Shown here one piece after another: positions 2,678-34,760 of a DNA stretch of 64,000 nucleotides (position 1 is its first letter; the number at the start of each line of letters is the position of its first letter). The DNA is from Bhargavaea sp. CC-171006 (GTDB taxonomy: Bacteria; Bacillota; Bacilli; Bacillales_A; Planococcaceae). Under the pieces are notes generated by a model, which made no database searches, was not told the DNA's origin, and worked only from the letters and a program-made list of their open reading frames with translations. A program made the position numbers and the translations under genes. The stretch spans positions 124,001-188,000 of the forward strand of contig NZ_QUZH01000023.1 of assembly GCF_009761675.1 (NCBI RefSeq), given 5' to 3'.

Positions 2678-2741
2678 ATTCACCTATTATAAAAAGTGAT
2701 CGGGTTCAGGTCGGTACTTTTTATAATATGTGAATTTTTTT
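2678..2741 (+). promoter_or_regulatory. Long AT-rich hairpin with T7 tail in the cold-shock mRNA leader
   Basis: Positions 2678-2697 and 2716-2735 are complementary at 19 of 20 positions (mismatch 2684/2729), enclosing an 18-nt loop; seven T residues follow (2735-2741). In the transcript it is terminator-shaped but weak because it is A-U rich. Just after it, CCUCC (2745-2749) could pair with the GGGGG Shine-Dalgarno at 2786-2790. This suggests temperature-dependent control of elongation or initiation, which is inference; cold-shock genes are known for structured leaders. Confidence 0.6.
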
Positions 2742-2800
2742 GTTCCTCCAAAAAAGTTCCATATTAAAATTATTTCTTTTAAGTTGGGGGTAAAGTCAAC

Positions 2801-3001
2801 ATGAAACAAGGTACAGTGAAATGGTTCAACGCGGAAAAGGGATTCGGCTTCATCGAGGTCGAAGGCGAGGACGACGTATTCGTACACTTCTCCGCCATCC
2901 AGGGCGAAGGCTTCAAGACGCTTGACGAAGGCCAGCAAGTTGAGTTCGAAGTTGTCGATGGCAACCGCGGACCACAAGCAGCAAACGTCGTCAAGCTCTG
3001 A
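2801..3001 (+). CDS. csp: Cold-shock protein (CspB/CspD type RNA chaperone)
   Basis: A 66-residue single cold-shock domain. RNP1 (KGFGFIEV) and RNP2 (VFVHF) are intact, and the protein starts [10 protein letters not shown] as in Bacillus Csp proteins. It binds single-stranded RNA/DNA and melts secondary structure at low temperature. It follows a strong sigma-A promoter and an unusually structured 150-nt leader, and is closed by its own terminator, so it is monocistronic. Which paralogue (CspB, C or D) it equals cannot be decided from the sequence. Confidence 0.95.
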
Positions 3002-3019
3002 TCGGCGGGTTCATATGGG

Positions 3020-3048
3020 GGCTTCCGGATTTCCGGAAGCCTCTTTTT
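3020..3048 (+). terminator. Intrinsic terminator of the cold-shock gene
   Basis: GGCTTCCGG (3020-3028) pairs with CCGGAAGCC (3033-3041) across a 4-nt loop, followed by TCTTTTTTA. Confidence 0.9.
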
Positions 3049-10341: not shown

Positions 10342-10657
10342 GCTTTCAGCGGCATCTGCCGATATCGAAATACACGCCCAAATCTCATACTCATTTCAAT
10401 CTAGTCTGTAATCCGTTGCCGTCTCATTTGTATTGAGACGCTGAAATCATCTCTTGTTTTTTCATTGAGCCGGTATTTAACCTGTCCACCGGATATTAGC
10501 CCGGGATCCTTGTTTTTCTGGTTTTTACAGCTGTTTTCCGTCTCATAGATCATGTTCCTTGATCCCTTTTGCAATGATATGCACAAAACCCTTTGCATTC
10601 TTTGCCTCTTCATGTTAACGTAGTACACAAGATTCGAAATAACAAAATTTAATATCA
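10342..10657. other. Intergenic stretch before the lysine riboswitch
   Basis: No supported gene. A weak hairpin (GTCTCATTTGTATTGAGAC, 10420-10438) is seen. A promoter for the riboswitch transcript must lie in the last 50 bp but its hexamers are not clear. Confidence 0.45.
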
Positions 10658-10898
10658 ATGGATGAGGTGCAAAGCTCATGAGTACCCCGCTGCAACGGCT
10701 GCAGACCGGTAGCGGGTGGAAAGGGAGTTTTGCCGAAACGGGTTTCGGTTTGCAGACGGTTCCCCGTTGGACTGCATATGAATAATATGCAGGCTGTCAT
10801 TATTCTCGTAATAATGGAGTGCTTCCACTTGTGACCTCACGGTCGTGCATCGTCGACTATCACAAGCCGGAAACCTACACCGTTTCCGGCTTTTATTT
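10658..10898 (+). promoter_or_regulatory. Lysine riboswitch (L-box) with terminator platform
   Basis: The conserved lysine-aptamer blocks occur in order: GAGGTGC (10664), CATGAGTA (10677), GGTGGAAAGGGAG then TTGCCGAA (10715-10737), the ATGAATAAT loop (10778), GGCTGTCATTATT (10792) and GGAGTGC (10816). The expression platform is a strong terminator: AAGCCGGAAAC (10864-10874) pairs with GTTTCCGGCTT (10882-10892), followed by TTATTTAT. High lysine should stop transcription before dapA. The dapA gene downstream, the first committed enzyme of lysine synthesis, fits exactly. Confidence 0.95.
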
Positions 10899-10992: not shown

Positions 10993-11874
10993 ATGACACA
11001 TCTATTTACAGGAGTAGCCGCAGCAGTCACCACCCCATTCACGAACCAGGAAGTCGATTACAACAGCTTCCGCCGCCACCTGGAGTTCCTGATTGAAAAC
11101 AATATCCAGGCGCTCGTCATCAACGGCACGACAGGAGAAGGCTCGACGCTCACCGCCGAAGAAAGCCGCCGTCTTCTGGAAATCGCCGTTGAAACAGCAG
11201 CCGGCCGCGTTCCGATCATCGCGGGAACAGGTTCGAATTCGACTGCGGAATCGATTCGTGCTTCCCGTGAGGCCAAAGAGATCGGTGCGGACGGACTGAT
11301 GCTGATCACCCCTTATTACAACAAGACGAGCCAACGCGGCCTGATCCGCCATTTCGAAGCAATCGTGAACGCTGCGGAGCTCCCTGCCCTCCTTTATAAT
11401 GTCCCTTCCCGCACTGGTATGTCGATCACGCCTGAAACGGTGCTTGAGCTGAGCCGCCATCCGTATATTGTCGGCCTGAAGGATGCGACCGGTGATCTTA
11501 ATTACATGTCCCAGGTACGCCTTGTGACAGATCCTTCATTCGCACTTTACAGCGGAAATGATGATACGGCGCTGCCGTTTACTTCCCTCGGGGGCCAGGG
11601 AGTCATCTCGGTCGTAGCCAACGTGGTGCCTGCCCGGTTCCAGGAGATGTACGAACAGACATTCACAAATCTGACCCGGGCTCAGGAACTTCACTATCGC
11701 CTGACTCCGCTGATCAGTGCACTGTCTGTTGATGTGAATCCTATTCCAATCAAGGTGCTGACGTCGCACCTCGGTTTCGGCGACTACGAAGTGCGCCTCC
11801 CTCTTCTGCCACTGGAAGAGGAGGAGCAAAGCCGGCTGGTCCGGCAGTTTGAATCAATGATGATGGAGGTTTGA
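10993..11874 (+). CDS. dapA: 4-hydroxy-tetrahydrodipicolinate synthase DapA
   Basis: A 293-residue (beta/alpha)8-barrel aldolase that condenses pyruvate with aspartate semialdehyde, the committed step to diaminopimelate, dipicolinate and lysine. Seen: the INGTTGEGSTL block with Thr46/Thr47, Tyr135 in YNVPSRTG, and the Schiff-base Lys163 in GLKDATGDL. Full length for the family. It lies 95 bp after the lysine-riboswitch terminator and one base before dapB. Confidence 0.97.
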   Translation: MTHLFTGVAAAVTTPFTNQEVDYNSFRRHLEFLIENNIQALVINGTTGEGSTLTAEESRRLLEIAVETAAGRVPIIAGTGSNSTAESIRASREAKEIGADGLMLITPYYNKTSQRGLIRHFEAIVNAAELPALLYNVPSRTGMSITPETVLELSRHPYIVGLKDATGDLNYMSQVRLVTDPSFALYSGNDDTALPFTSLGGQGVISVVANVVPARFQEMYEQTFTNLTRAQELHYRLTPLISALSVDVNPIPIKVLTSHLGFGDYEVRLPLLPLEEEEQSRLVRQFESMMMEV

Positions 11875-11875
11875 C

Positions 11876-12613
11876 ATGAGATTGCTGCTTTGCGGGTACG
11901 GCGCGTCGAACAAACGCGTCGCTGCCCTTGCCAAGGAACGGGGACATGAGATTGTAGGTGTGCTGCTTTTGCGCGGCCAGTCTGCCGACGGCTATCCGGT
12001 TTACCGGCCGGATGAACGCCTGCCTGAAGCCGATGCCGTCATCGACTTCTCGCATCCTGTTCTCACAAAAGCTCTGCTTGCCGCGGACATCGGTCTCCCG
12101 CTGGTGATCGCGACTACAGGAGAGAAAGAAATATTGATCGAACAGATGAAGGAAAAGGCGGACCGTCAGCCGATATTCTTCAGTGCGAATATGAGCTACG
12201 GGGTGCATATTGTGACGGAGATTGTCCGGTATGCCACCTCCCTTCTCCCTGCCTTCGATATTGAAATGACTGAACGCCACCACCGCAAAAAGGTGGATGC
12301 GCCAAGCGGGACACTCATTAAACTGTATGACGCCATTGCGTCGGCCAGGCCGAATGTTCATCCTGTTCACGACCGGAGCCAGGAAGAAGGCGCCCGGACG
12401 GACGAGGAAATCGGTATTCATTCAGTGCGGGGCGGCACGATCACCGGTGAGCATGAGGTGCTGTTTGCCGGCCACGATGAAACAATCACCATTGCGCACC
12501 ATGCCCAGTCCAAGGACATTTTCGCATCCGGCGCCCTTGATGTTGCGGAGCGCCTGATCCATAAGGAAAACGGCTATTATACTTACGATAACCTTGGAAT
12601 CGGCGATTCCTGA
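11876..12613 (+). CDS. dapB: 4-hydroxy-tetrahydrodipicolinate reductase DapB
   Basis: A 245-residue NAD(P)H-dependent reductase, the second step of the pathway. Catalytic region ERHHRKKVDAPSGT and the substrate loop VRGGTITGEHEV are intact. The nucleotide loop reads GYGASNKRV instead of the common GxxGRMG; this is the form I know from Staphylococcus DapB (GYGAMNQRV), an enzyme that accepts both cofactors. Shares the riboswitch with dapA and starts one base after its stop. Confidence 0.95.
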   Translation: MRLLLCGYGASNKRVAALAKERGHEIVGVLLLRGQSADGYPVYRPDERLPEADAVIDFSHPVLTKALLAADIGLPLVIATTGEKEILIEQMKEKADRQPIFFSANMSYGVHIVTEIVRYATSLLPAFDIEMTERHHRKKVDAPSGTLIKLYDAIASARPNVHPVHDRSQEEGARTDEEIGIHSVRGGTITGEHEVLFAGHDETITIAHHAQSKDIFASGALDVAERLIHKENGYYTYDNLGIGDS

Positions 12614-12677: not shown

Positions 12678-12826
12678 TTACTCCATTCGCATGCCTAATC
12701 CCGTCATTCCACCCGTTAATTTCGTCATTAAATTTTCCGGCATGTCCGAATGACGAGATTAGCGCTTTGAATGCTGAAACCGAAACCGTGAATGACGAAA
12801 CTGATCCCAAGAATGACGAAACCGGT
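12678..12826. repeat. 21-bp phased inverted repeat array A
   Basis: Seven degenerate units with core AATGACGAAA or its complement. CTCCATT at 12681, CGTCATT at 12702 and 12723 (one orientation), then AATGACG at 12749, AATGCTG at 12770, AATGACG at 12791 and 12812 (opposite orientation). Spacing within each half is exactly 21 bp, with a 26-bp step at the turning point. The centre can fold: 12714-12729 pairs with 12749-12764 with a few wobbles. It lies between the terminators of the convergent dapB and parC. Unlike CRISPR: no constant repeat or long spacer, and the orientation flips. Confidence 0.85.
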
Positions 12827-31800: not shown

Positions 31801-33210
31801 GTGAAACCATTGTTAATCACTTTGTTGGCCGCCGCCCTGTTGGCAGGATGCTCAGGCGGAACCGCGGATTCGCCCGAGCAGGTGCCGGATGAAGCGGCCG
31901 GGTCCGCCCCCGCTGCGGAAAATAAGAAGGAAACGGATCAGGCGGCATTCTCCCCCGTCGTTTTGCAAGCGGAGACGGCGGACGAGCTTGCCGCTTTGCC
32001 GCCAGGCGAGCTCACGGCCGATTTCACGATTGAAGGGGAAGCCTCCACATGGAACGGCCGGGAAGTGCCGGAAACCATCCGCGATGCTTTTCTCGACAGC
32101 GTGAAGCCTGCCGCCGAAGCGGCGGGAGATGACCCCGATGCCCTGTTCGGTGCAATCGCCGGCACACTCGGCACCCCGTCCTACAGTGAACTTGTCGGAT
32201 GGCTGGCAGAGTACGAGCCGGCCTTTGACGAGCCGCTCCTGCCCGAACCCCATGAAGTCGAATCAGAAACGCGGCCGGCCTTCCCAGAAAAGGCCGTCAT
32301 CCTCCTCGACGCCAGCTCCAGCATGCTGCTGGAAGCCGATGGGCAGCTGAAGATGGAAACCGCCAAAAGCGCGGTGAGGAGCTTCGGCCGCACAATCGGC
32401 CAGAAAAGCGACGTGGCTCTTTATGCATACGGTCATGCCGGCACACAGAACGAAGCCGACAAGGCGCTTTCCTGCGGTACCATTGAGGACATCTACCCAT
32501 CCGGGAAGTATGACGCGGAAACGTTCAACGCTGCCGTCGACGGCGTGCAGGCGGCCGGATGGACACCGCTCGCCGGCGCCATCCGCCAGGCGCGGGAAGA
32601 TCTCGCGCAGCATGAAGGCGACATCACGGTCTATGTCGTAAGCGACGGGGCGGAGACGTGCGGCGGCGACCCGGTCAAGGAAGCCGCGGCTTTCGTCAAA
32701 GACCATCCCGGACGCCACGTCGACATCATCGGCTTCCAGGTCGACGCAGAGGCGGAAAGCCAGCTGAAAGCCGTAGCCGATGCCGGGAACGGCAATTACC
32801 ATGGGGCCGACAGCCTGGAAGAGATGACCGGCGGCATGACGGAGTACTGGCTGCCGTCCGACCTCGACCTCTCCCTCCTCGTCTACCAGTCGCCGGACGG
32901 ATGGGAAAGCTCGACGGCCCTCCACCGCATATCCGAACGGGCTACACTCGCGAAGCGCGCGGCCACGAGCGAAAAGTACAGGTTCATGGGCGCTGCCGAT
33001 CTGATGCTGGAAAAAGGCCTGATCGATGAAGCCATGCGGGATGCCCTGAATGACAGGAGCATTGCACGGGAAGAAGCCCACCTCCTTATCCTGGACGGGC
33101 TCGAAGAGGAAAAGCGTAACGCGATCAACTCTGAAGTCGAGCGGATCGATGCAAAGATCGATGATTACCGCACCCGGATGGAAGCGCTGAAAAAAGAACA
33201 AGGATCCTGA
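31801..33210 (+). CDS. VWA-domain lipoprotein
   Basis: A 469-residue protein: signal peptide with lipobox LLAGC (Cys17), an acidic Ala/Glu-rich linker, a von Willebrand A domain with MIDAS AVILLDASSSM (Asp170), Thr in GWTPLAGAI and Asp in VYVVSDGAETCGG, then a helical C-terminus ending in a coiled coil. Anchored outside the membrane; metal-dependent protein binding is likely. GTG start with AGGAGGAGC upstream. It splits yolD from uvrX and is read in the opposite direction. Binding partner unknown. Confidence 0.9.
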   Translation: MKPLLITLLAAALLAGCSGGTADSPEQVPDEAAGSAPAAENKKETDQAAFSPVVLQAETADELAALPPGELTADFTIEGEASTWNGREVPETIRDAFLDSVKPAAEAAGDDPDALFGAIAGTLGTPSYSELVGWLAEYEPAFDEPLLPEPHEVESETRPAFPEKAVILLDASSSMLLEADGQLKMETAKSAVRSFGRTIGQKSDVALYAYGHAGTQNEADKALSCGTIEDIYPSGKYDAETFNAAVDGVQAAGWTPLAGAIRQAREDLAQHEGDITVYVVSDGAETCGGDPVKEAAAFVKDHPGRHVDIIGFQVDAEAESQLKAVADAGNGNYHGADSLEEMTGGMTEYWLPSDLDLSLLVYQSPDGWESSTALHRISERATLAKRAATSEKYRFMGAADLMLEKGLIDEAMRDALNDRSIAREEAHLLILDGLEEEKRNAINSEVERIDAKIDDYRTRMEALKKEQGS

Positions 33211-33213
33211 ACC

Positions 33214-33247
33214 GGAACCGGTCATGCTGCGGCATGGCCGGTTTTTG
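33214..33247 (+). terminator. Terminator of the VWA gene
   Basis: AACCGGTCATGC and GGCATGGCCGGTT pair imperfectly around a short loop and are followed by TTTTT. Confidence 0.8.
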
Positions 33248-33284
33248 GCTTCCGGGAAAGGCCGGGCGGCTTGTATCTGCTGCC

Positions 33285-33440
33285 CAGTTTCGTCATTCGT
33301 CCTGTCGATCTCGTCATTGGGACCGGTAATTTCATCATTGGGCCCGCCATTTCGTCATTCACCGCATGAATGGCGAAACCGGAGGCGCGAATGACTAGAC
33401 TCCATCACCGAATGATGAAATCGGTGCCCTGAATGACGAA
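33285..33440. repeat. 21-bp phased inverted repeat array B
   Basis: Eight degenerate units. CGTCATT at 33291 and 33312, CATCATT at 33333, CGTCATT at 33353, then AATGGCG at 33369, AATGACT at 33390, AATGATG at 33411 and AATGACG at 33432. Steps are 21, 21, 20 bp, then 21, 21, 21 bp, with the orientation flip between 33359 and 33369. Same core and architecture as the array at 12678-12826. The centre folds into a hairpin (CATTTCGTCATTCA with TGAATGGCGAAA). Lies between the convergent VWA and uvrX genes; the last unit merges with the hairpin behind uvrX. Confidence 0.87.
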
Positions 33441-33441
33441 A

Positions 33442-33463
33442 CCGCCGTCCGTGCTGCCGGCGG
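33442..33463 (-). terminator. Hairpin behind uvrX
   Basis: CCGCCG (33443) and CGGCGG (33458) can pair just beyond the uvrX stop; the following minus-strand bases are GTTTCGTCATT, i.e. the first unit of array B, so there is only a three-T tract. Confidence 0.45.
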
Positions 33464-33468
33464 TGGAG

Positions 33469-34722
33469 TTACATCTTGTGGCCGCCGATCAGCTTCGCCC
33501 GCCCGACGGCGGTTCCGGCATCCGTATAGGAGACGGCGCGCAAAATGGCGGCCGGGCCGTACTTCGACCGGATTGCATCCATGGCGGCGCCGAGCTTGCG
33601 CTCCTCCCACTTGCGCGTCTCGAACAAGCTGAGCTGCATGGAGTGCTCCTCCTCCAGATTGGAAAGCGAAAGGGCGAGCCGACGGACCGGGCGGCCGTCG
33701 TGGAACTCATCAAGAAGCGTGGTGCATACCTGGTAGATGGCCATTGTCGAGTTGGTGGCCGTCTCAAGCGACCGGGAGCGGGAAAACCCTCCCCCGTACG
33801 CGTTCTCGCTGTAGCCGGCGGACAGGTGGATGGTGCGACCGGCGCGGCCTGCTTCCCGCGCGCGCCGTGCCACGTCTTCGCACATCTCCAGGATGACGGC
33901 GAGGATATCCTCCCGCTTCACGTAATCGCGGTAAAGCACCTGGCCCTTCCCATAGCTGACCTGCCCCGCGATAAGCGGTGCACCGAGCTCCGACAGGTCG
34001 ATGCCCCATGCATGGTGGTACAGCTGGTTGCCCATGACGCCGAACTCCTTCTCCAACAGCTTGAGATCGGCATGGGCAAGGTCGCCGACGGAAAAGATGC
34101 CAAGGCTGTTCAGCCGGCGCTCCATCCGGCGGCCGTTTCCCCACATTCCCGACAGCGGGGCGACCGGCCACAGTTTTTCCGGGACATCCCCGTACGTCCA
34201 TCTGGCGAATCCGGTCTTTTTTGCGTCCAGGTCGAGGGCGATCTTCGCCAATAGCATGTTCGGCCCCATACCGATGGCGGCCGGCATCTGGAACTGGGCA
34301 AGCAGCTGGTCCTGGATCCGCTTTACGGTCTCTTCCGGAGGCCCCCACAGCCGCTCCGTCCCGCCGAGATCGACAAACGCCTCGTCGATGCTGTACACGT
34401 GGATGGCTTCCTTCGGCACGTATTCGCCAAGGAGCCGGGTGATCTCCATCGACACCCGGACGTAGAAGCCCATCTTCGGTTCGATGAGCCGGATCGACGG
34501 ATCGTCCGGGATCTCATACAGCCGGTGACCCGTCCGCACACCGAACTCCCGCTTGAGCCGGGGCGAGGCCGCGAGGACGACACTCCCCTTGCGGTCGCGG
34601 TCCCCGATGATGGCGATCGGCTCCTTTAAAACGTCCAGTCCCTCGTCTGCGGCCGCGCAGCTTGCATAAAAGCTCCGCATATCCAGGCAGATGATTTTCC
34701 GGTCCGGCAGTCCCTCATACAT
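33469..34722 (-). CDS. uvrX: UvrX/YqjW-type Y-family DNA polymerase (UmuC-like)
   Basis: A 417-residue translesion polymerase. Catalytic motifs CLDMRSFYASC and VYSIDEAFVDL; thumb region with FGVMGNQLYHHAWGIDLS; clamp-binding sequence MQLSLFE near the C-terminus. Closest in type to the plasmid/chromosomal UvrX-YqjW group rather than DinB. The ATG at 34722 has GGAGG 9 nt upstream; an in-frame ATG at 34731 abuts it. A LexA box lies about 40 bp upstream. Its usual partner YolD is separated from it. Confidence 0.92.
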   Translation of the reverse strand: MYEGLPDRKIICLDMRSFYASCAAADEGLDVLKEPIAIIGDRDRKGSVVLAASPRLKREFGVRTGHRLYEIPDDPSIRLIEPKMGFYVRVSMEITRLLGEYVPKEAIHVYSIDEAFVDLGGTERLWGPPEETVKRIQDQLLAQFQMPAAIGMGPNMLLAKIALDLDAKKTGFARWTYGDVPEKLWPVAPLSGMWGNGRRMERRLNSLGIFSVGDLAHADLKLLEKEFGVMGNQLYHHAWGIDLSELGAPLIAGQVSYGKGQVLYRDYVKREDILAVILEMCEDVARRAREAGRAGRTIHLSAGYSENAYGGGFSRSRSLETATNSTMAIYQVCTTLLDEFHDGRPVRRLALSLSNLEEEHSMQLSLFETRKWEERKLGAAMDAIRSKYGPAAILRAVSYTDAGTAVGRAKLIGGHKM

Positions 34723-34760
34723 GGCGCGCATCCTCCTTTTTGATCAATATATTCGTTATA

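Follow-up and report, generated by a model that had tools for sequence, protein, structure and literature searches.

A dispersed family of two-turn arrays at gene ends in Bhargavaea: possible docking sites for a DNA-binding protein

Behind uvrX, in the 64,000-nucleotide stretch of DNA analysed here (the window), lies an array of eight short units in two opposed halves, array B, which is one copy of a dispersed family of TTTCGTCATT arrays of Bhargavaea (Bacillota, Caryophanaceae). The units of this family follow one another at a fixed step, are inherited with their loci, are under selection in their cores and are situated at gene ends, and the best explanation appears to be that they form arrays on which a protein docks at the level of the DNA, a reading to which we give a probability of about 0.5. 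In the open-access literature no account of arrays of this kind was found for Bhargavaea or for its family.

Results

The array behind uvrX and its surroundings

The features of array B and its flanks, in window coordinates, are as follows.

31882 to 33210, plus strand: VWA-domain gene, flanking array B on the left; two species have a different gene here and keep the array
33212 to 33249, plus strand: terminator-like hairpin and T-run directly behind the VWA gene, outside array B (z -5.1)
33288 to 33297, plus strand: unit 1, TTTCGTCATT, exact
33309 to 33318, plus strand: unit 2, TCTCGTCATT; T/C at position 2 is ordinary variation within the family
33330 to 33339, plus strand: unit 3, TTTCATCATT
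33350 to 33359, plus strand: unit 4, TTTCGTCATT, exact; reached by a step of 20, not 21
33360 to 33368, no strand: centre separating the two halves, 9 bp long; the five orthologs have 8 bp here and most other arrays 19 bp
33369 to 33378, minus strand: unit 5, AATGGCGAAA as read on the plus strand
33390 to 33399, minus strand: unit 6, AATGACTAGA as read on the plus strand, 2 mismatches
33411 to 33420, minus strand: unit 7, AATGATGAAA as read on the plus strand
33432 to 33441, minus strand: unit 8, AATGACGAAA as read on the plus strand, exact
33441 to 33464, minus strand: weak hairpin behind uvrX, reaching the last unit (7-bp stem, z -1.1)
33469 to 34731, minus strand: uvrX, right of array B, a Y-family polymerase with IMS domains

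The sequence-only reading had placed eight units between convergent genes, and this was borne out: all eight were found, the forward positions it gave beginning 3 bases inside the 10-bp core TTTCGTCATT, and the VWA-domain gene (plus strand) faces uvrX (minus strand) across the gap. The 21-bp step that it described holds for most of the array and fails at the third forward step, which is 20. Relative to TTTCGTCATT, the unit at 33390 carries two mismatches and four other units one each. With up to one mismatch the core occurs 21 times in the whole window, against 5.6 ± 2.3 in shuffled sequence (0/100 shuffles reached 21), and the six exact copies in the window all fall inside array A or array B. 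Array B is thus real and far from chance. The hairpin said to be fused to the final unit exists but is weak, 24 of 200 shuffles folding equally well or better.

Array A is the second copy in the window.

12699 to 12821, no strand: array A, same family, 2 + 4 units; cores at 12699, 12720 (plus), 12749, 12770, 12791 and 12812 (minus)

It is flanked by dapB (plus) and a gyrA/parC-type topoisomerase gene (minus) and has a strong terminator-like hairpin on either side (z -6.6 and -7.5). Neither array matched any Rfam family. Elsewhere in the window, Rfam did recognise a lysine riboswitch (RF00168, 98.7 bits) at 10654-10832, upstream of the plus-strand gene at 10993-11874 that precedes dapB (at 11876), and, barely over the gathering score, a cspA thermoregulator (RF01766) at 2678-3047 on the plus strand.

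A family confined to Bhargavaea

Arrays A and B are two among dozens and not a pair of special loci. In the window's genome, two cores at a 21-bp step were found 76 times in forward and 92 times in reverse orientation, against none for the reversed-pattern control, and the stretches fetched from this genome contained at least 33 arrays. A strict three-core pattern searched against one genome per species in 84,980 species, a collection that may lack the closest records to the window's genome, matched 42 stretches, all from Bhargavaea; no viral contig matched it. Among 261 genomes of the family, 59 to 146 two-core pairs were present in six of the eight Bhargavaea genomes and one and none in the other two (G004 and G006), and other genera stayed at the control level.

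Unit anatomy and spacing

Across the genus (86 distinct arrays, 583 units) the unit profile was Y R R T Y T C G T C A T T C R, with six free bases behind it. Within one half, 408 of the 424 distances between successive detected units were exactly 21 bp. The exceptions comprised six steps of 20, 22 or 24 bp, six of 42 bp, in which a middle unit has decayed with the frame retained, and four larger ones, produced where the program merged tandem arrays. Several arrays run in one direction only; wherever halves are opposed, their order is constant. Of the 74 gaps between them, 61 measured 19 bp and another six 18 or 20; a single one was 40 bp long, and the remaining six were 8 or 9. These classes place the centre of array B about one helical turn off the standard 19 bp, and the 40-bp exception about two. 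The short centre is limited to array B and its five orthologs, and the one-turn change represents a single event. The TCTCG form of the core was shunned by the outermost units (5/57 versus 49/158, p 0.0006).

Inheritance and selection

The uvrX locus was retrieved from all eight Bhargavaea genomes by means of the uvrX protein, the core playing no part in the search. Array B was present behind uvrX in six species, in two of them with a different left-hand gene, and was missing in G004 and G006, one of which retains both neighbours. Many further arrays occupy orthologous places in different species. Between such orthologs whole 21-bp units have been gained and lost, and entire arrays have disappeared, which indicates that no single copy is essential.

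In pairwise comparison of orthologous arrays the cores diverged by 8% (162/2033), the spacers by 34% (414/1223) and the flanks by 27%. As most of these pairs had been found by core patterns, the comparison is biased toward conserved cores; the orthologs of array B, which are free of that bias, gave 8.6% for cores against 30% for spacers and 19% for flanks (p 1e-10). The pairs are not independent and the p values therefore overstate the certainty, but the contrast was seen in nearly every pair. The low divergence of the cores relative to spacers and flanks indicates that they are under purifying selection, and that the spacers drift in sequence while their length is kept. At the edges of the unit, where the profile allows R or Y, changes were mainly transitions (168 transitions and 45 transversions, versus 601 and 659 in flanks), a pattern that would fit partial base recognition. 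The proposal that the array is a maintained architecture and not a recent duplication thus holds, given its retention behind uvrX in six species, the conservation of cores against spacers and flanks and the near-invariant 21-bp step.

Location at gene ends

The 33 arrays comprised 16 in convergent, 16 in co-directional and one in divergent settings, compared with 4, 33 and 22 for array-free junctions of at least 150 bp, gene orientation being taken from a home-made gene caller based on codon usage. Taken alone, this location shows only that promoters are avoided, as would be expected of any insertion that spares them. The genes adjoining different arrays are unrelated to one another. At one locus (L093:8382-9779) two arrays flank a NERD-domain gene of atypical codon usage; in B. 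ginsengi (L047:5439) one short array remains and the NERD-domain gene is absent, as if the arrays had recombined.

Other cores with the same step

Because the TTTCGTCATT family is missing from G004 and G006, a core-free scan for repeated units, covering all periods between 12 and 45, was run on 200 kb of each genome. A period of 21 ranked among the most frequent (6/13 and 10/34 matches), with 20 next; the core differed at nearly every locus, and all of the arrays lay in non-divergent intergenic gaps. Applied to Bhargavaea loci, a set enriched in array-bearing ones, the core-free scan gave 119 of 132 matches at 21 and 11 at 42, with none in shuffles, and it found no arrays in 50 kb of E. coli. 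As an unbiased test, a strict scan of contig C19 (364 kb) gave seven arrays, two with a step of 21 and five with a step of 20; no divergent gene pair enclosed any of them. Both steps therefore occur. Examples from G006 and G004 (L127-L146) include intergenic 21-bp-step arrays with locus-specific cores (L138:1105, L140:7888, L135:4023, L137:4622) and 20-bp-step arrays of up to at least 10 units, often of two alternating types (L136:11633, L140:7433, L141:12692, L143:1256, L146:1592). In another genus of the family, an intergenic array of about 0.9 kb (L160:3640-4560) alternates 20-21 bp units of CCGCTCTAAAAAGAGAGAAAG and CCGCTCCTAAGAAGTGAGAAC.

Single genomes contain several core families, for example TTCRTCACTTTCR and TTGGTCTTTCG at three places each and TGTGTACTTTCR at two, and an array of a second family, GAAAGACCAA, is shared by two species at orthologous positions (L095:179, L065:3482), its spacers having diverged. 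The motif YTCR was found on either strand in 34 of 55 consensus units, short noisy strings in which much of this may be chance. With a looser, family-wide pattern the reversed control rose too and coding repeats contributed, so all that this search shows is that periodic arrays are frequent and differ strongly from species to species.

Discussion

Several properties together point to assembly of a protein on the DNA: a spacing of exactly two turns, a selected, non-palindromic unit of 15 bp with R/Y edges, a spacer free in sequence but fixed in length, the fixed rotational register of the two opposed halves and the lack of RNA constraint. Array B would then be a single representative of a dispersed element that consists of recognition sites in tandem. 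A putative sequence-specific protein would occupy each 21-bp unit with one subunit or dimer, recognising 15 bp (YRRTYTCGTCATTCR) and leaving 6 bp as free spacer. As the step is exactly two helical turns, the bound proteins would share one face of the DNA and might polymerise along it, and the inverted half, whose rotational offset is constant (a gap of 19 bp, or one turn less in array B), would allow two filaments to meet. Such elements, inherited with the locus, could hold or insulate the DNA at gene ends or between convergent genes. That a protein binds the arrays at the DNA level we consider slightly on the probable side; a structural or insulating role, the likeliest of the candidate functions, is a tentative suggestion.

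One alternative is that the arrays are a selfish or neutral dispersed repeat of the MITE or REP type, which a unit-binding transposase dispersed in the distant past and which is now decaying with no benefit to the host. Its many copies are confined to one clade, loss of arrays is tolerated, and whole arrays have been copied in local tandem (L091, L102, L052). The location at gene ends is also like that of REPs, those of the GTAG and CGTC superfamilies lying mostly between convergent or co-directional genes (PMC3733652); 32 of the 33 arrays are intergenic in just these settings. The arrays further resemble REPs and BIMEs in being dispersed, clade-specific and composed of units in opposite orientations, and the core happens to contain CGTC. 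However, REP units are palindromes of 20-40 bp (PMC3733652), with stems of 8-9 bp in the CGTC REPs, whereas the profile YRRTYTCGTCATTCRN6 has no internal dyad, and the Bhargavaea units are co-oriented at exactly 21 bp with unpaired spacers. Against a selfish repeat also stand the purifying selection on the core after dispersal and the failure to find a target-site duplication or a precise empty site. In addition, all 26 arrays of other species whose flanks align to G000 have a counterpart there (the G000 set being array-enriched), and between unlinked copies the similarity of the spacers barely exceeds expectation. We therefore regard this explanation as unlikely, with the proviso that a selfish origin fits all of the evidence for docking and could predate the present use.

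The sequence-only reading had hinted at a role in transcript ends, in which the two halves would pair in the transcript as a long hairpin that ends or protects the mRNA. The arrays are situated in 3' regions and their predicted folds are strong (z -3.6 for array B, -10.8 for L086), but this strength stems from the inversion of the cores. Mirrored spacers were no more complementary than non-mirrored ones (1.11 versus 1.07 of 6 positions; random 1.76), and the two-letter (R/Y) core positions of mirrored units showed no covariation, no mirrored test falling below p 0.07. Active avoidance of spacer complementarity was rejected too, as non-mirrored spacers of the same array were equally low and there was no relation to gene strand. 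Several arrays have a single direction and the other core families were seen mostly as direct repeats alone, neither of which can form a hairpin. Array A sits between terminator-like hairpins and the VWA gene has its own; a consensus scan in and around array B found no intrinsic terminator (a G+C-rich hairpin followed by a T-run), the stable hairpins lying outside the arrays. An RNA element is accordingly improbable.

Iterons are direct repeats of about 21 bp with two-turn phasing, a conserved core and a freer spacer, in arrays of 3-8. Since the Bhargavaea arrays share this build, and two viral sequences have similar cores at the same step, it is attractive to suppose that they are decoy origins, which mimic the iterons of phage or plasmid initiators and titrate these. 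This would account for the many cores and their fast turnover. A viral contig, L169, has 21-bp units with GTTCGTCATTTTG inside a gene (490-1743) that weakly matches DnaD-like loaders or initiators, the units there encoding RQNDEPS repeats; the contigs L234 (7140-7500) and L253 (5200-5560) carry a non-coding, origin-like AATATGACGAAA array at 21 bp, with an AT-rich stretch and inverted copies of TTTCGTCAT. However, the arrays matched none of 50,697 phage and 72,556 plasmid records. For the L169 protein, neither Bhargavaea nor the phage records yielded a homolog. The PF09681-type initiators of the family carry repeats at steps of 12 to 24 bp, none at 21; among these Phage_rep_org_N genes (L171, L173, L177, L180, L183 and others), repeats at a 12-bp step in or near the gene are probably their own origins. 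Iteron origins also differ in having an AT-rich unwinding element, whereas the Bhargavaea arrays have a fixed centre, mostly G+C-rich centres and flanks, opposed halves and dozens of chromosomal copies at gene ends; no recognisable initiator was seen among the genes beside arrays A and B or among ten further genes adjoining arrays. Phage-encoded resistance (PER), in which a phage origin is borne on plasmids or prophages (PMC6356513), offers a parallel in the titration of initiators by extra binding sites, and differs in that no matching phage origin is known for these arrays. Decoy origins are hence very doubtful.

The constant repeat and the variable spacer of constant length recall CRISPR and TIGR arrays, from which the present ones differ in their spacers of 6-11 bp, inherited at orthologous loci and drifting with the flanks, their opposed halves and their tens of loci; no cas or nuclease genes were found among the array neighbours examined. 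Three further candidates were rejected: an uptake sequence, as the window has no exact cores strewn about as single copies; cargo-bearing opposed transposon ends (TnsB-like), as all halves have the same order and no far-apart pair was seen; and heptapeptide coding, as the arrays are intergenic and accompanied by 20-bp-step arrays. Viral matches to ATGACGA were mostly coding repeats.

More speculatively, the docking arrays may belong to a two-turn class of the Caryophanaceae, in which the 21-bp frame stays constant, frequently along with a YTCR end, and the core varies from one family to the next (TTTCGTCATTCR, TTCRTCACTTTCR, TTGGTCTTTCG, TGTGTACTTTCR, GGTAGNGAYTCR, TCCGATKACACTCR and others). 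Such 'dialects', several to a genome, would be read by fast-diversifying DNA-binding proteins, for example as decoy origins in an arms race against phages or plasmids, or for chromosome marking. We think it rather unlikely that this is the case, but if several dialects do coexist in one genome they would represent a new kind of genome-wide DNA marking. The array itself is a ready bait, and the two congeneric genomes that lack the core are a natural control. The exact phasing, the selection on the core and the turnover of the recognised sequence among close relatives imply a DNA-binding protein system that would be new in Bacillota.
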